Virus record (IMG/VR): IMGVR_UViG_3300046385_000134
Coordinates: 1-47,368 of that record
Length of the DNA: 47,368 nt
Reading direction: 5' to 3' (one strand)
Origin: a virus
Positions 1,822 to 23,778 of the stretch are shown here, one piece after another. The position numbers were made by a program, and so were the translations under genes. Within the stretch, counting starts at the first letter, position 1. Each line of letters begins with the position of its first letter. The notes below the pieces were generated by a model. That model had not been told where the DNA came from, ran no database searches, and saw nothing but the letters and a program-made list of their open reading frames with translations.

Positions 1822-2173
1822 TGAAGATTTTCTGAAAGTCAAGGAAACATTGACTCGTATTGGTGTGGCTTCAAAGAAAGAAAAGAAGCTGTATCAGTCC
1901 TGTCATATTCTTCACAAGCAAGGACAGTACTACATTGTCCATTTCAAAGAGCTGTTTGCGCTCGATGGCAAACCAACAAACATTTCCGAAGATGATATTG
2001 CGCGTAGAAATACAATCGCAAACCTAATCACCGAGTGGGGCCTTGTTACGTTGGTTGATGCTGCAAAATCAAAAGCTCCAACTACCCCTATGTCTCAGAT
2101 TAAAGTGATCCCACACAAAGAAAAGTCTGAGTGGGATCTTGTGACCAAATATTCAATTGGTCGTAAACTTTAA
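1778..2173 (+). CDS. regA: Translational repressor RegA
   Basis: RegA binds the ribosome-binding sites of early phage mRNAs and shuts down their translation. The match to T4 RegA is very strong: DFLKVKETLTRIGVA, YQSCHILHKQGQYYIVHFKELF, then ARRNTIANLITEWGLV and the C-terminal LVTKYSIG. The ATG chosen gives 131 residues (T4 has 122); a GTG four codons upstream is possible. The gene overlaps gp62 by 44 bases, and its stop overlaps the stop of the convergent minus-strand gene by four bases. As in T4 it may also regulate its own operon. Confidence 0.95.
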   Translation: MIKLESLVEVKLKIDEDFLKVKETLTRIGVASKKEKKLYQSCHILHKQGQYYIVHFKELFALDGKPTNISEDDIARRNTIANLITEWGLVTLVDAAKSKAPTTPMSQIKVIPHKEKSEWDLVTKYSIGRKL

Positions 2174-2712
2174 ATTGTAAACGGCAACCATAACCACACT
2201 GCTTGTGAAAGCATCAGTGTAGCCGTTCCACCAACAGCTAAGCTAGCCCAGTACAGGCGCATATTAACTGCTAGAATCGATGCGGTCAAAAGAACGACAG
2301 CAATCTGAAATAGTGAACCTGAATATGTATACCATGGGCTACGCGTCTTTGCAACAGCACGTTCCTTTTCAAGCCCACGTGCCTTTTCCATCAGAGCTTT
2401 CTTTCCCTCTTTAGGTTCATTGTCGTAGCGATCAATCTTTGCTTCCAATACAGCAGCCTTTTTCATATCCTTACGGGACATTGCATCATCATAAGCCATT
2501 TCAGCAAGAGTCTGTTTAATACTCTTTGCTTGATAGAATGACCATGTGTTGTTTGCTTCTATGGTGTTGTTTAGAATCTTAGAACTATTGCTACCACCGA
2601 AATAGGTATTAAGGGCCAAAAGAGCAGCAAATACCACGATAACCCATCCAGCTTTATCTTTAATTTGGGCTTCTCTTTCGCTTCTACTAAGAGGCTTCTT
2701 TTCTTCTGTCAT
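2170..2712 (-). CDS. DUF4337-like membrane protein
   Basis: Residues about 20-38 form a first membrane helix (AGWVIVVFAALLALNTYFG). It is followed by the typical NNTWSFYQAKSIKQTLAEMAY segment and a charged coiled-coil region about 65-115. Two more helices come near the C-terminus (SGSLFQIAVVLLTASILAVN and LAVGGTATLMLSQAVWLWL). This matches the DUF4337 architecture found in bacteria and T4-like phages; function is unknown. It is the last gene of the minus-strand module, with a TAGGAG ribosome-binding site 8 bases before the ATG. Confidence 0.85.
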   Translation of the reverse strand: MTEEKKPLSRSEREAQIKDKAGWVIVVFAALLALNTYFGGSNSSKILNNTIEANNTWSFYQAKSIKQTLAEMAYDDAMSRKDMKKAAVLEAKIDRYDNEPKEGKKALMEKARGLEKERAVAKTRSPWYTYSGSLFQIAVVLLTASILAVNMRLYWASLAVGGTATLMLSQAVWLWLPFTI

Positions 2713-2720
2713 AATCGCTC

Positions 2721-3083
2721 CTAAAATTTTATTTTTAATCCAATTGATAAATTATTTACTATTGCAGACCCGTGGTCTGCAATAGTAAAATAGTAGTATA
2801 TACTTTTGTTACTATCGGACAAATCACTTTTGTAAACAGCGTAGTGTAATGCAAGTCTGGTAATGAAGTATAGATCTACTTCCCGTGTACTGGGTCTACT
2901 TCCAATAATTTTACTAGCAATGGGGCCTTTTTCAACAAACCCCTCATCATATCGTTGCGTCATATTACGTGTCGTGGACCAATCGCCTAAGATTAGTGCA
3001 GTGCCAGTCCACATCTCACCAATATGTTGAGCACTGCAGTTAAACGATAGCGCTAACAAAAATGATAGCACTAATAGTTTCAT
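2721..3083 (-). CDS. Signal-peptide protein, conserved hypothetical
   Basis: The first 18 residues (MKLLVLSFLLALSFNCSA) form a Sec signal peptide; the Cys lies before a possible SA|QH cleavage site rather than in a clear lipobox. The mature part contains ALILGDWSTTRNMTQRYDEGF, then EKGPIASKIIGSRPSTREVDLYF and a final NNLSIGLKI. This resembles a small family of bacterial and phage proteins (TxxDxxxTRxI ... NPxxGxxPS ... YF) with no known function. It overlaps its upstream neighbour by ATGA. Confidence 0.75.
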   Translation of the reverse strand: MKLLVLSFLLALSFNCSAQHIGEMWTGTALILGDWSTTRNMTQRYDEGFVEKGPIASKIIGSRPSTREVDLYFITRLALHYAVYKSDLSDSNKSIYYYFTIADHGSAIVNNLSIGLKIKF

Positions 3084-3637
3084 TTTGCTAATGGGTTATC
3101 AATCGCTTTTTGGATCTTATTATCCACGTCGCGGTTAATTCGTTCTAACTTATTGTCGGTATCGCGCTTGAGTTTATCCATATCATCACGAGTACGGTCT
3201 AGGTTGGAACGTAGGTCTTTCTGCATGGCTTTTAGATCCATGTCTGTTTCACGCTGTGCTTGCTTAACACTGCGCTCGATCTGTTCTGTGACTGATTCGT
3301 TACGACGAATGTCATTCTTTAGATCTGTCTTGATATCACGAGTATAGTCGGCACCCTTCTGGCTGTTTTCTTCGATCACCGCTAAGCGCTTATCGAATCC
3401 AGAAAGGTCAGGGGCTGAATACTCGGAGATTTTCTTTTTCATCCCTTGATAATCTTTGTACACTTCGAAGGCACCGTACAAACTACCAAGAGTTGATGAT
3501 ACAATTGTGAACGCCACCATTAGTTTGGCGGGGGTGAATTCATATCCACCAATGCTAATAACTGTATCCTTACTAGCATATTTTTTAGCTGCTTCTTCTA
3601 ACTTTTCTACTTCTTTGTTTAAGTCTTTTTCTGACAT
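3080..3637 (-). CDS. Membrane-anchored coiled-coil protein
   Basis: A short charged N-terminal helix, one membrane helix near residues 39-60 (KLMVAFTIVSSTLGSLYGAF), then about 110 residues of charged heptad-like sequence (DLKNDIRRNESVTEQIERS ... DKLKRDTDNKLERINRDVD). This predicts a long parallel coiled coil projecting from the membrane. The ATG used has GGAGAAG 7 bases upstream; an in-frame ATG eight codons earlier has none. The shape recalls spanin-like or membrane-scaffold proteins, but a separate spanin pair exists elsewhere, so this is probably a structural part of the minus-strand module. Confidence 0.8.
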   Translation of the reverse strand: MSEKDLNKEVEKLEEAAKKYASKDTVISIGGYEFTPAKLMVAFTIVSSTLGSLYGAFEVYKDYQGMKKKISEYSAPDLSGFDKRLAVIEENSQKGADYTRDIKTDLKNDIRRNESVTEQIERSVKQAQRETDMDLKAMQKDLRSNLDRTRDDMDKLKRDTDNKLERINRDVDNKIQKAIDNPLAK

Positions 3638-3680
3638 TTTAACTTCTCCATTTATTTCCACAAAAATGGATTGAAAAATA

Positions 3681-4088
3681 TCATTTTTCGAATTTCATGT
3701 TCTTTAAATTACGTAGTTCACCTTCTAATTTTTCAAGTTCCATTCTCTTCTTTTCTAACTCAAGTTGATATAATACACTACAATCAACTCTACCTTTTGG
3801 CGCGCCAATCGGTATAATAATCCTTCCATATACACCTACATCTTTTGTGTTCGGTGTAACTGGGTTTGTTGTTATAATCTGATTATTGTTGTTACCAATG
3901 ATACCAACAACGCCAAACTCAACATTCGTGCCTGAACCAATAGCCATCGAGCAATCAAGTTCGCCAGCTCTAAATCTATCAGAGAGGTAACTACCAGGTG
4001 CGCTTGGTATAGCGAGGTTAAGTGACCCACCTTGAGAATAACTCAGGTTATACCACATTAGCAACAGTAATCCAAATAGATACTTCAT
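3681..4088 (-). CDS. Secreted protein with C-terminal coiled coil
   Basis: Residues 1-18 (MKYLFGLLLLMWYNLSYS) are a Sec signal peptide. The mature part is Gly/Asn-rich (GVVGIIGNNNNQIITTNP) with two cysteines (GELDCSMAIG and GRVDCSVLYQ) that could form a disulfide. It ends in a charged helix (LELEKKRMELEKLEGELRNL), likely a coiled coil. No family is recognised. Its start overlaps the stop of the upstream gene by ATGA, so the two are probably translated together. Confidence 0.75.
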   Translation of the reverse strand: MKYLFGLLLLMWYNLSYSQGGSLNLAIPSAPGSYLSDRFRAGELDCSMAIGSGTNVEFGVVGIIGNNNNQIITTNPVTPNTKDVGVYGRIIIPIGAPKGRVDCSVLYQLELEKKRMELEKLEGELRNLKNMKFEK

Positions 4089-4468
4089 CTTACCTTCGAG
4101 CAGATCTTTGAAGATATTACAGTGTTTTGTACGTCCTGTTTTTTAATTTTGGATTCGGTACAAATGTATGTAACACGTCTTATATCTTCTTTTCTAACAT
4201 AAACGTTTACTTGTTTTGTTTCAAGATACTTTATGTTAATCAGCTTGCTCTCAGATGCAAATGTTACTGGCCCCCAGTCGCTATCGAAAACACCCAGCTC
4301 ATAATATTCAACATCTTTACGTTTATTAAACAACTCCATCTTCGTGGTCATGACCCCATCGATGAATGAGTATTGAAACTTAGGATAAGTCGGCAAAAAT
4401 TGGTGGGCGCTTGCTGTTGCACTCCCACCAATTATGATCATAATTATCACAAAAACATAATGAAACAT
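4085..4468 (-). CDS. Secreted Ig-like protein, possibly chaperone-like
   Basis: An N-terminal signal peptide ending near ATASA (residues 17-21) is followed by alternating beta-strand sequence: TTKMELFNKRKDVEYYELGV, then WGPVTFASESKLINI and KQVNVYVRKED. The pattern resembles the N-terminal domain of PapD-type periplasmic chaperones, but it is too short (127 residues) for the two-domain family and lacks the C-terminal domain. Two cysteines near the end (YICTES and SKICSK) may pair. The chaperone idea is an inference from strand pattern only. Confidence 0.72.
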   Translation of the reverse strand: MFHYVFVIIMIIIGGSATASAHQFLPTYPKFQYSFIDGVMTTKMELFNKRKDVEYYELGVFDSDWGPVTFASESKLINIKYLETKQVNVYVRKEDIRRVTYICTESKIKKQDVQNTVISSKICSKVR

Positions 4469-4477
4469 AATATACTC

Positions 4478-4975
4478 TTAAACAGCGATACAGGATGCAG
4501 TCACGATCGCTCTGTAGGTGCCGGCAGGGAATGCCTTGTTGTATCCGTACTCAGCTTTTGATTCTGCCTTGAACCACACAGAACCTGGAACAGTAAGACT
4601 GATTTCTGTTGTGTTGTTATATTGCACTTTGTTAGTAGAATATGCAGACATTGCTGCATCTGTAACTCTGCTAACATCGACGTTACCTGTCCACTTTACA
4701 ACATCGGAAAGTGTTGGGCTCGTCGAGAAAGAGTTTGGGGTTGTAATAACAGCCTTGTAGAATCCGGACTGCACAACATCGTAACGAACGACTGGTTGTA
4801 CACCACCATCTACTGGAAGGGTGCTTAGTACACTTGGCGATGGGTTACCATATACGCCGGGTGTTTCTGTGTAGATTACACATCTGGATGTGACAATTCC
4901 TGTAATAGGAATATCCTCTGACGATGCAAACAGTGGTGTTGCAAGCAGAGCGGTTAATAGAATTTTTTTGAACAT
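4478..4975 (-). CDS. Secreted beta-rich protein, fimbrial-subunit-like layout
   Basis: Signal peptide MFKKILLTALLATPLFASS, then a beta-rich body with one cysteine near each end of the mature chain (SRCVIY and VTASCIAV), as in proteins whose terminal strands are tied by a disulfide. The C-terminus AGTYRAIVTASCIAV is typical of surface or pilin-like beta sandwiches. It lies next to the small Ig-like gene. Identity as an appendage subunit is only suggested by layout; no usher gene is present. Confidence 0.75.
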   Translation of the reverse strand: MFKKILLTALLATPLFASSEDIPITGIVTSRCVIYTETPGVYGNPSPSVLSTLPVDGGVQPVVRYDVVQSGFYKAVITTPNSFSTSPTLSDVVKWTGNVDVSRVTDAAMSAYSTNKVQYNNTTEISLTVPGSVWFKAESKAEYGYNKAFPAGTYRAIVTASCIAV

Positions 4976-5002
4976 TTCTGTATCCTTGGTTTTGTTAGGG
5001 TG

Positions 5003-5863
5003 TTACTTATTGTATTGCGAATCTACCATTGCCCGGTGCAAACTTTCTTGTGCGAGGCCAAGACTTCTTGCTCTTCGTGAGTCTGGTAGCTTCTTGTCAG
5101 GATAACTAAGAACTTCTTTGTATACACCACCTGGTATATTTATACTATACAAGTCTAAACCGGGTATATTATTCAACATTTCGAGTTGAGATGCCTTTTG
5201 TGCATCCTCAGGCCGTACCATATTATTGGTTACAACCTTCTTTTCTGCGGGTTCTTTGTCGTTTTTTTTCGACTTAGATTCCACAGCAACCTTCTTTTCT
5301 TCTTCGAGGGTTGTTTTATTTTCTATTGCACTTTTTAGATACTCATTGGACAACGGATCTATTGGCTCAGCCGCTTTTAGTGTTAGGTTTTTGAGCATTG
5401 CTTCTGCATATCCTGGGCAACTTGGGCTGCTTAATGGATCAGAGCAGGTGTCGTATCTGTACTTGTATACAACGGATGGATTCTTGACAACACCTTTTCC
5501 GTCCACGGCAATCTCACCATCACCCCAATACTTACCGGCTATGTTATCAACAGGGATCACTTTAGTGATGGAGTTACCTGGAAGGCCAGACCAGTCGTCT
5601 TGTTTTCTGAATATAAACCCACTACCTAATGCGTTTTTGTTCTGAATAGAAACAACCATAGGATCTGCAGCGTTTTTTACAGTAGAATATTGGTATATCA
5701 CACCGTCAACTGTTAATCCTGTTATTGCAGGAAGAATACCGGGCATACTCCACGTCATCCCACCAGTTGCAGCGTTGGTGGTAGTTCCGTTCAATATCTC
5801 AGAGTAAGAGTAGGAGCAGCAAAGTAACGATGCCAAGGCCACCAAATAACGTCTTAGTACCAT
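5003..5863 (-). CDS. Large secreted protein of the minus-strand module
   Basis: A 286-residue protein with a signal peptide (LVALASLLCCSYSYS). It then has a beta-rich domain with FIFRKQDDWSGLPGNSI and GDGEIAVDGKGVVKNPSVVY, and a cysteine pair (DTCSDPLSSPSCPGY). A low-complexity Lys/Glu linker follows (EEEKKVAVESKSKKNDKEPA), then a C-terminal tail (PGLDLYSINIPGGVYKE). I recall similar sequences in other marine T4-like phages, without function. The ATG with AAGGA 8 bases upstream was chosen; a GTG one codon earlier is possible. It overlaps the previous gene by 65 bases. Confidence 0.8.
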   Translation of the reverse strand: MVLRRYLVALASLLCCSYSYSEILNGTTTNAATGGMTWSMPGILPAITGLTVDGVIYQYSTVKNAADPMVVSIQNKNALGSGFIFRKQDDWSGLPGNSITKVIPVDNIAGKYWGDGEIAVDGKGVVKNPSVVYKYRYDTCSDPLSSPSCPGYAEAMLKNLTLKAAEPIDPLSNEYLKSAIENKTTLEEEKKVAVESKSKKNDKEPAEKKVVTNNMVRPEDAQKASQLEMLNNIPGLDLYSINIPGGVYKEVLSYPDKKLPDSRRARSLGLAQESLHRAMVDSQYNK

Positions 5864-6344
5864 CACTCATTCCTTCTGTATTTTCTTCAATCTTACCTGG
5901 TTGAAGTTTCTTATTCGTTTTCCATTGTTCTTTAGCCTCTGCACCGATTGTTCCATCGAAAGGACATGGCGTACCAGCCATCATCATAGCGTCGAAGACT
6001 CGTTTATCCTGACAGAGTGTAGAAACTGCTGCTACCTTCATACCCATATCGTATAGGGTTTTGGATAGTTTCAATCGCTCACAATTCATGTCACGAACGG
6101 TTGTTCCAGCGGACAGACCTAAAATCTGTGTTTGAACAGCACCAGCGACGCCGACTGTACACAAATCCGAGTTGGATATGTTCATAGTAGGGGTAATAGC
6201 AGATGCTGGAGGTGATTTGAGTGTTGTGACAGAATCAGAGTACGAATTCACCGTGCTTCTGGTGGTCGAATCTGTGACGATTGGCTCTGCGTTGGCCAAT
6301 CCCATGCTCATAATCAATAAAACGAAAAGGATGAATTTACTCAC
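5799..6344 (-). CDS. Secreted and C-terminally membrane-anchored protein (first gene of minus module)
   Basis: Residues 1-19 (MSKFILFVLLIMSMGLANA) form a signal peptide. The middle contains conserved-looking SPPASAITPTMNIS, DLCTVGVAGAVQTQILGLS, RDMNCERLKLSKTLYDMGM and AGTPCPFDGTIG with four cysteines. The chain ends with a membrane helix (LFGGLGIVTLLLLLLL), so the protein is probably held in the inner membrane facing the periplasm. The GTG start has TAGGA upstream and lies 33 bases downstream of a minus-strand late box. I believe homologs occur widely in T4-like marine phages; function is unknown. Confidence 0.8.
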   Translation of the reverse strand: MSKFILFVLLIMSMGLANAEPIVTDSTTRSTVNSYSDSVTTLKSPPASAITPTMNISNSDLCTVGVAGAVQTQILGLSAGTTVRDMNCERLKLSKTLYDMGMKVAAVSTLCQDKRVFDAMMMAGTPCPFDGTIGAEAKEQWKTNKKLQPGKIEENTEGMSDGTKTLFGGLGIVTLLLLLLL

Positions 6345-9076: not shown

Positions 9077-9498
9077 CAGACTGGGATCAGCGGTTTATGG
9101 ATTTAGCCACTCACGTTGCTGGGTGGTCTAAAGATCCTTCCACACAAGTTGGTGCCGTTATTGTCAACAACAAGAAGCAAGTGCTCAGTTTGGGGTACAA
9201 TGGTTTTCCACGCGGTATTCAAGATTTTGAGCATCGATACCTAGATAAACCACTCAAATATAAGTTTGTTGCACATGCAGAACGGAACGCACTTGATAAT
9301 GCTTTTGTTGATGTAGAAGGTGCAACGTTGTACAGTACATTGTACCCATGCACAGAATGTGCCAAAGGGATCATTCAACGTGGAATTAAAACAGTCGTAA
9401 CTTCAAAACAATGGTACTCAGAGCAAGCAAAAGTTTTTGACTTCGGAGTGTCAGAAATTATGTTCCAAGAGGCTGGCATCGATGTTGTGATGTTATAA
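9073..9498 (+). CDS. cd: dCMP deaminase
   Basis: Converts dCMP to dUMP, the substrate of thymidylate synthase. The zinc site is the HAERNAL motif (His and catalytic Glu) plus PCTECAKGI (PCxxC). The upstream STQVGAVIV and GYNGFPRGI motifs match T4 Cd. At 141 residues it has a compact family length. It works with the phage ThyX and NrdA/NrdB encoded downstream. Its TAA stop lies inside the TATAAATA late box of the next unit. Confidence 0.93.
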   Translation: MTDWDQRFMDLATHVAGWSKDPSTQVGAVIVNNKKQVLSLGYNGFPRGIQDFEHRYLDKPLKYKFVAHAERNALDNAFVDVEGATLYSTLYPCTECAKGIIQRGIKTVVTSKQWYSEQAKVFDFGVSEIMFQEAGIDVVML

Positions 9499-9501
9499 AT
9501 A
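9494..9501 (+). promoter_or_regulatory. T4-type late promoter upstream of hsp20
   Basis: An exact TATAAATA overlapping the dCMP deaminase stop codon. T4 spacing would put the start site near 9507, inside the left arm of the CCCATC/GATGGG hairpin (9503-9519). The resulting leader to hsp20 is about 205 bases. Confidence 0.75.
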
Positions 9502-9659
9502 ACCCATCTCAGGGATGGGAACATGGCGGCAGTAACCATGTAAACAACTGTCACTAATTTTAAGAACCTACCTTAGGTCCGTTCGTAGCTACGGTAACAG
9601 GCGTCCGTGTAATTACACCCTCGACACGAAAGTTCGAGCCAGTATAAGGTAAGCTGGGC

Positions 9660-9689
9660 GATATGCCTTCGGGGTATCAGTTTTATTAA
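9660..9689 (+). terminator. UUCG-tetraloop hairpin, possible attenuator
   Basis: GATATGCCTTCGGGGTATC folds with GATAT/GTATC and CC/GG around a UUCG tetraloop, with one bulged G. It is followed by AGTTTTATTAA. The T-rich tail is short, so this may be a weak terminator or attenuator, or simply a folding core of the thermometer leader. Confidence 0.4.
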
Positions 9690-9706
9690 CTCGCTTATTT
9701 AAGGAG
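9690..9706 (+). promoter_or_regulatory. ROSE-like RNA thermometer hairpin over the hsp20 ribosome-binding site
   Basis: CTC-G-CTT, loop ATTT, then AAGGAG: six base pairs with one bulged G, hiding the whole Shine-Dalgarno sequence 6 bases before the hsp20 ATG. The anti-Shine-Dalgarno arm contains UCGCU, which fits the U(U/C)GCU signature of ROSE thermometers, including the G lying opposite the AGGA. At low temperature the site would be closed, and heating would open it. Sequence, geometry and downstream gene all agree; folding has not been computed. Confidence 0.72.
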
Positions 9707-9712
9707 AACAAT

Positions 9713-10216
9713 ATGTTCAATACTAGCTTTTTCAAAGACAATACAGCTTTCAAAGACTTTGAAAAGAATTTCATTGGTTTCGAAGACCAATTCAATCGCA
9801 TCTCAAAGATGCACGATGACTTGACCAAGTCCATCCCAAACTACCCTCCATACAACATTAAGAAGACTGGTGAAAATACCTATGTCATCGAAATGGCTGT
9901 TGCTGGCTTTGCTCGTCAAGACATTGAAATCGAGCTGGATGGTGGCAAGATGATCGTCAAAGGTAATGTTGCCAGCGATGACAAGCAAGAAGACTTCTTG
10001 TGGAAAGGTATTGCTGCACGTAACTTCACACGTATCTTCGCTCTGGAAGACCAAGTTGAAGTTAAGGACGCAGAGATGTTCAACGGTATGTTGAAGGTGT
10101 TCCTGGAACGCATTATCCCTGAGTCTAAAAAGCCAAAGAAGGTTGAAGTTAAAGAGAAGGCTTCCAAGTCTTCCAAACAACTTCTTACAGAAGACCCACA
10201 AGGTCGCGATCTGTAA
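9713..10216 (+). CDS. hsp20: Small heat shock protein (HSP20/alpha-crystallin)
   Basis: An ATP-independent holdase chaperone of 167 residues. A variable N-terminal arm (to about residue 45) is followed by the alpha-crystallin domain: YPPYNIKKTGENTYVIEMAVAGF, IEIELDGGKMIVKG and the signature NGMLKVFLERIIPE. A Lys-rich tail follows. hsp20 is a frequent gene in marine T4-like phages and is thought to help virion assembly or protect phage proteins (established context, exact role unproven). It has its own late promoter and a thermometer-like leader and is followed by a terminator. Confidence 0.94.
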   Translation: MFNTSFFKDNTAFKDFEKNFIGFEDQFNRISKMHDDLTKSIPNYPPYNIKKTGENTYVIEMAVAGFARQDIEIELDGGKMIVKGNVASDDKQEDFLWKGIAARNFTRIFALEDQVEVKDAEMFNGMLKVFLERIIPESKKPKKVEVKEKASKSSKQLLTEDPQGRDL

Positions 10217-23334: not shown

Positions 23335-23778
23335 ATGGACGAACTAATCGAACAAATGAAGGTTGTGCTTGCTGATACAGTAGCCTTCGGAATGAAAGCA
23401 CATCAGTACCACTGGAACGTAGAGGGCATTGACTTCTATGCTAATCACAAATTCTTTCAACTAATTTACGAAGAAGTAGATGGTTCTGTTGACGGTATCG
23501 GAGAGCAGATCCGTCAAATTGATGCATATGCACCGCTGAGCCCACAACGTATTGCTGAGTTGACGAATCTTGCAGACACACCACCATCACCTGAATTCAA
23601 AGTGATGGTTCGTAATCTGTACAACGACAACAATACTGTTCTTCGCACTCTGATGGAAGCATACCGCCTAGCTGAAAGATACAGTGAAATTGGCCTGTCC
23701 AACTTCCTCCAAGACCGTGTAACAGCTCACAAGCAACATCTGTATATGCTTCGCTCGACTCTGAAAGGTGATGAGTAA
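23335..23778 (+). CDS. Dps/ferritin-like DNA-protection protein
   Basis: A 147-residue four-helix-bundle protein. AHQYHWNVEGIDFYANHKFF gives the conserved His/Trp of the Dps ferroxidase entry, and EEVDGSVDGIGEQIRQIDAY matches the D-x3-E metal ligands (normally DxxAERIRxLG). The Dps fold is well supported. Ferroxidase activity is likely but one flanking residue (AER to GEQ) differs. Dps shells bind DNA and remove iron and peroxide. Its position among virion genes under late control is unusual. Confidence 0.85.
   Translation: MDELIEQMKVVLADTVAFGMKAHQYHWNVEGIDFYANHKFFQLIYEEVDGSVDGIGEQIRQIDAYAPLSPQRIAELTNLADTPPSPEFKVMVRNLYNDNNTVLRTLMEAYRLAERYSEIGLSNFLQDRVTAHKQHLYMLRSTLKGDE

Follow-up and report, generated by a model that had tools for sequence, protein, structure and literature searches.

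A probable ROSE-like RNA thermometer preceding hsp20, a late-transcribed phage gene

Results

The hsp20 locus

The window, that is, the whole stretch of 47,368 nucleotides analysed, is a 47 kb IMG/VR virus record carrying T4-like genes, including those for polymerase B, UvsX and a DnaB-like helicase. It encodes a small heat-shock protein whose gene, hsp20, opens with an ATG at 9713 and follows a leader with a late promoter and several RNA elements (Table 1). The gene is common in phages related to cyanophages, and in cyanophages themselves it belongs to the core, being present in 16 of 16 genomes (PMC3037559). A search for a tRNA upstream found none. Elsewhere in the window, a gene at 23335-23778 has a ferritin-like domain (PF00210, E=2e-19), and a series of ORFs runs along the minus strand at 2170-6344; several of these have signal-peptide-like starts by eye, and none of the five tested gave a Pfam match.

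Table 1. Positions of hsp20 and of the features of its leader in the window.
Feature	Position	Strand	Description
T4-type late promoter, TATAAATA	9494-9501	+	read from the sequence; two forward copies in the window
Element A (not ROSE)	9503-9552	+	CCCATC/GATGGG hairpin, then pseudoknot-like ACATGG/CCATGT; read from the sequence
Element B (not ROSE)	9559-9665	+	conserved pseudoknotted RNA; model R3, 74.9 bits
ROSE hairpin I	9660-9678	+	UUCG loop, bulged G9665; model R2, 66.9 bits over 9650-9715
Anti-SD arm CUCGCUU	9690-9696	+	ROSE motif UCGCU, bulged G9693
Shine-Dalgarno (SD) AAGGAG	9701-9706	+	sequestered in predicted hairpin II
hsp20	9713-10216	+	167 aa, IbpA-type small heat-shock protein; PF00011, E=3e-16; phrog_432, E=3e-41

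Two hairpins before the start codon

Hairpin I can be read as GAUAU-G-CC(UUCG)GG-GUAUC. In hairpin II, six predicted pairs (C9690-G9706, U9691-A9705, C9692-G9704, C9694-G9703, U9695-A9702 and U9696-A9701) close an AUUU loop at 9697-9700 and leave G9693 unpaired. An earlier sequence-only reading of the locus had described AAGGAG as paired with CTC(G)CTT around an ATTT loop, and both the sequence and its coordinates proved correct. It had further pointed to a UCGCU in the opposing arm, fitting U(U/C)GCU down to its odd G, and to a UUCG-capped hairpin upstream; G9693 is indeed bulged opposite the SD, and the upstream hairpin is present and likewise has a bulged G.

Elements of the ROSE-like class, as defined in PMC11182007 and PMC3669281, combine a U(U/C)GCU motif imperfectly paired to the SD, a bulged G within that motif, and two to four hairpins, the last of which contains the SD. 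The window leader has the UCGCU form of the motif, two hairpins with the SD in the second, and G9693, a G retained in both alignment A1 and alignment A5 (A1 leaders were extracted by motif search from loci chosen by protein). The window contains a single instance of CTCGCT-N3..10-AGGAG, where shuffles predict 0.07. A fourU thermometer was ruled out, as the arm opposite the SD is without four consecutive U.

Late promoter and upstream RNA elements

Transcription of the window leader likely starts at about 9506-9510, and about 150 nt of other conserved RNA lie between the late promoter and hairpin I. Element A directly follows the promoter, with a GGGATGGG hairpin, a pseudoknot-like stem and an A-rich tail, in the window and in L001, L026, L046, L107 and L146; its loop GGCAGT can be read as pairing with ACTGTC, and a similar arrangement occurs in many freshwater relatives. 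Element B, for which no Rfam family was found, shows covariation in P2, P3 and the pseudoknot pairs (29 sequences) and contains the motifs ACCUURGG and GUAA. It precedes the ROSE element in many freshwater phages (L138:2220-2325, L114, L156 and others), mostly as a single copy at the hsp20 leader, with weaker additional matches in the L064 and L017 contigs.

Many relatives also have the late promoter upstream of the element. The late-promoter-like NWTAAATA starts 17-19 nt 5' of the GCC in hairpin I in 36 of 85 aligned leaders, a spacing from which the transcript in those 36 leaders would start almost at hairpin I.

Conservation among viral loci

The same leader precedes hsp20 in hundreds of lake and ocean phages, and the element is far from unique to the window phage. 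A covariance model built from 39 distinct leaders was run on the window and on 80 viral loci chosen by Hsp20 protein similarity, yielding 76 copies in 457 kb (75 loci plus the window), of which two are cut short by the end of a contig. All 75 protein-selected loci untruncated at the leader contain the element exactly once; the remaining five of the 80 gave no match because the contig begins too near the gene to contain a leader. The element heads either hsp20 itself or an ORF of 70-76 aa followed by hsp20. Two further protein-selected sets of 80, partly overlapping the first, were searched with a loose motif, which was present at 153/160 loci against 33/1528 other ORF starts, a few of the 153 matches (e.g. 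L255) being probably off the true site. Several loci without this motif are truncated or have UUGCC with AGGAGG instead. The motif variants in protein-selected loci were TCGCT (58) and TTGCT (95).

A DNA pattern blind to hsp20, GCCTTCGGGGT-N8..22-AACTCGCTT, matched at least 120 viral contigs. Among 80 of these examined, a few were too short downstream to read, and nearly all the readable ones led to Hsp20, directly or past one small ORF; in L135, the pattern is followed first by a small rubredoxin-like ORF. The 70-76 aa ORF lies between element and hsp20 in many freshwater phages (e.g. L006, ORF from 2778). It resembles a phasin by eye, but this candidate was rejected, and the ORF is left unnamed because it matched no PHROG and no Pfam family scored above its cutoff.

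Among cultured phages, hsp20 is preceded by the leader in the cyanophages S-SKS1, P-SSM2, S-RIM2, S-CRM01, S-B64, P-TIM40 and others, in the pelagiphages HTVC008M, Mosig and HTVC115P, in the methylophage Melnitz and in C48C1. A blastn search with one marine leader touched 356 phage records, some of them elsewhere than at such a leader (a weak Nodularia phage match is an example). The covariance model R2 placed its best match (E <= 2e-7) at the leader in 23 of 23 large records, with second matches of E 0.009 or worse, that is, one strong copy per genome; as most of these records are in the R2 training set, this result speaks for uniqueness and not for independent detection. An independent test is provided by model R1, which was trained on freshwater leaders only and recognises most marine and pelagiphage leaders.

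The annotated hsp20 start of S-SRM01 lies inside hairpin I (L219:603) and looks wrong, as does that of S-T4 (L217:734), which lies downstream of the likely start. In P-SSM2, a strong manA RNA (L215:15-212; 181.6 bits) is found upstream of the hsp20 leader.

Covariation

In an alignment of 84 distinct leaders, which is biased towards the structure by having been fitted to the model, 99.3% of cells are paired. Double-sided changes amount to 172 cells against 47 ± 7 in shuffled alignments, none of 500 shuffles reaching the observed value, and the covariation signal is lost when pairing partners are shifted. Nearly all of it lies in hairpin I, where 5 of 7 pairs show compensatory changes. Hairpin II, in which U(U/C)GCU and the bulged G are retained, hardly varies; its changes are C-G to U-G at the pyrimidine of the motif and a few register shifts with AGGAGG. 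Such constancy is expected given that the SD is fixed; the pairing of hairpin II rests mainly on an invariant complement and bulged G amid freely varying spacers, with few compensatory changes. The sequence-only reading had depended on the pairing recurring in related hsp20 leaders, and on alignment it is conserved, with covariation in hairpin I.

These comparisons bear on one alternative, that an ordinary ribosome-binding site and its surroundings resemble the element by chance. In its favour, the paired stretch is short, and a partial complement beside AGGAG is no rarity, a similar core being found in 3 of 163 other genes. Conservation, covariation and specificity for hsp20 nonetheless refute it, and its probability is negligible.

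Folding energies and temperature

Folded in isolation, hairpin II of the window adopts the described structure, at about -5.2 kcal/mol (20 C) or -2.8 kcal/mol (37 C). When the whole leader is folded to minimum energy, it is only partly formed; the expectation of a low-energy hairpin is borne out by the isolated element and only in part by the entire leader. In most leaders, the isolated hairpin lies between about -4 and -6 kcal/mol at 20 C and between -2 and -4 kcal/mol at 37 C, against -7.8 kcal/mol at 37 C for the ROSE_3 (Pseudomonas) consensus. Deleting the bulged G in silico makes hairpin II much stabler. The SD is more often paired at 20 C in hsp20 leaders than in other genes with AGGAG (0.69 vs 0.51, p=5e-11). 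Mean SD accessibility in whole-leader folds rises from 0.23 at 5 C to 0.34 at 50 C, against 0.31 to 0.38 in shuffled leaders. The temperature-dependent fold proposed in the sequence-only reading gives a shallow response, close to that of shuffled leaders. The decisive support for the element is comparative, not energetic. A helix of such low stability would suit cool-water hosts.

The weakness of hairpin II and the shallow temperature dependence of the whole leader also agree with a static arrangement, in which hairpin I, lying near the inferred transcript start in many phages, would shield the 5' end of the mRNA and hairpin II would fix the level or timing of translation, with no useful temperature response. 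A static brake, however, needs no bulged G and U(U/C)GCU shared across divergent phages, and it fits neither the restriction to hsp20 nor the likeness to validated thermometers; we consider this explanation quite improbable.

Conserved IbpA residues and self-repression

In E. coli, IbpA represses its own synthesis via a thermometer-type leader, for which Arg93 and an aromatic residue at position 34 are needed (PMC10474464). By the same logic, the phage leader might be mainly a target of Hsp20: the free protein would bind its own leader and block translation until aggregated proteins titrate it away, so that protein aggregation, and not temperature, would be sensed. In an alignment of 206 distinct phage Hsp20s with E. 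coli IbpA, position 34 is Tyr or Phe in 205 and position 93 is Arg in 203, the window protein having the Tyr34 and Arg93 equivalents; hairpin I, with its bulged G, is conserved too. Against this, the equivalent of Lys98, where E. coli needed a positive charge, is mostly lost (Lys in 9/206), the conservation of Arg93 may have other reasons, and hairpin II has the bulged G that marks temperature-sensing elements. As the main role of the leader, self-repression is unlikely, but it can coexist with a thermometer, and the retention of the key IbpA residues makes it a serious companion mechanism that may act as well.

Matches to bacterial ROSE families

No Rfam family scored above its cutoff on the window leader. 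The best of 4227 families on 9400-9800 was ROSE_3, matching over its full model length at 9657-9718 (22.3 bits, E=0.019), and ROSE_2 matches the same place. The covariance search suggested by the sequence-only reading thus brought up a ROSE family first at the right site, with a score below the gathering cutoff of 43 bits for ROSE_3 (RF02523). Higher ROSE_3 scores were obtained for the leaders of Melnitz (34.1 bits, E=0.0013), L064 (29.6), S-SKS1 (27.9) and C48C1 (26.8), none of the phage leaders tested reaching the cutoff. In whole virus records, ROSE_3 gave weak scattered matches, and in 274 bacterial genomes none over the cutoff.

In the reciprocal direction, R2, for which phage leaders were the sole training set, singled out the ibpB leader within a 5 kb E. 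coli stretch (24.9 bits; E=6e-5 for 52 kb). It also recovered, from a bacterial genome, the leader before an ibpA-type gene (L399). Most of its weak matches in the 274 bacterial genomes do not lie beside an Hsp20 and may be chance; L401, with a match about 100 nt from its hsp20, was left uncounted. Recent transfer from a bacterial genome was considered and rejected: across 257 Gb of genomes from bacteria and archaea, the full phage pattern gave one real match, in what looks like a phage contig within a MAG (L227), and three other matches without an SD. A scan of the same genomes for Hsp20 protein relatives, which reaches close relatives only, found none.

Discussion

The computable structural and comparative features support a ROSE-like reading of this leader, namely the pairing of motif and SD, the bulged G, the two hairpins, the heat-shock gene that follows, the covariation, and the sub-threshold reciprocal detection with bacterial ROSE. 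We put the probability that it is a ROSE-like RNA thermometer on a late-transcribed phage hsp20 at roughly 80%, temperature sensing itself being suggested by analogy. The mRNA would start at the T4-type late promoter, upstream of both hairpins, and hairpin I, with its stable UUCG or similar loop and bulged G, would serve as a static scaffold. In the cold, ribosomes would initiate poorly because (A)CU(C/U)-G-CU of hairpin II would pair with AGGAG; warming would open this hairpin, whose helix the bulged G would keep marginal, and allow synthesis of Hsp20 and, in many relatives, of the small ORF. Melting, translational induction and a benefit in warm-water infection are all extrapolated here from bacterial ROSE elements.

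More tentatively, aquatic T4-like phages may possess an ancient family of ROSE elements fired from late promoters and tuned cooler than bacterial ROSE, with temperature (hairpin II) and aggregation (Hsp20 binding) as inputs and, in many freshwater phages, the pseudoknotted RNA as a third. The role of phage hsp20 has only been guessed at, as capsid scaffolding or heat survival (PMC3037559, PMC7674155). A thermometer would mean that the phage makes its chaperone on demand in warm or stressed infections; ROSE control would then operate in infected cyanobacteria and Pelagibacter, and lytic infection would be tied to water temperature. The thermometer reading is directly testable in cultured phages.

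Thermometers reported in phages are those of lambda cIII, the SPbeta blyA fourU and a gut-phage sigma70 fourU (PMC10586365, PMC11182007). These are phage genes whose translation is likewise under proposed thermal control, but motifs, genes and lifestyle differ. The sequence-only reading had held that no ROSE element was described in a phage, and the literature consulted (mostly open-access journal papers) agrees, naming only these three, none as ROSE-type, and containing no leader study of cyanophage hsp20 that we could find.

One close counterpart is the leader of E. coli ibpB, which lies within the ibpAB operon and is reportedly a tested thermometer (Gaubig 2011, cited in PMC3669281). It has GCUC-G-CC(GUCA)GG-GAGC and ACUCGCUU...AAGGAG, resembling the phage hairpins, and was found by the phage-only model, but it is intercistronic, has additional bases between the hairpins and belongs to a bacterial gene.

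Another close counterpart is found in Pseudomonas ibpA, whose short ROSE-like thermometers are equated here with Rfam ROSE_3 (RF02523). When probed, these showed two hairpins, of which hairpin II melts and hairpin I is static (PMC3669281). They share with the phage leaders the two hairpins, the ROSE motif and bulged G opposite the SD and the small heat-shock gene next to them (PMC3669281); in the ROSE_3 consensus, as in the phages, CUCGCU faces AGGAG and hairpin I takes the form AUGCC...GGGU with a bulged G. The phage element differs in scoring below the Rfam cutoff, in its weaker SD hairpin, in lying behind a late promoter instead of a sigma32 one, and in its occurrence in phages that include those of cyanobacteria and Pelagibacter. 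We interpret the phage leaders as ROSE-like thermometers that form a phage clade and sit on a gene transcribed late.
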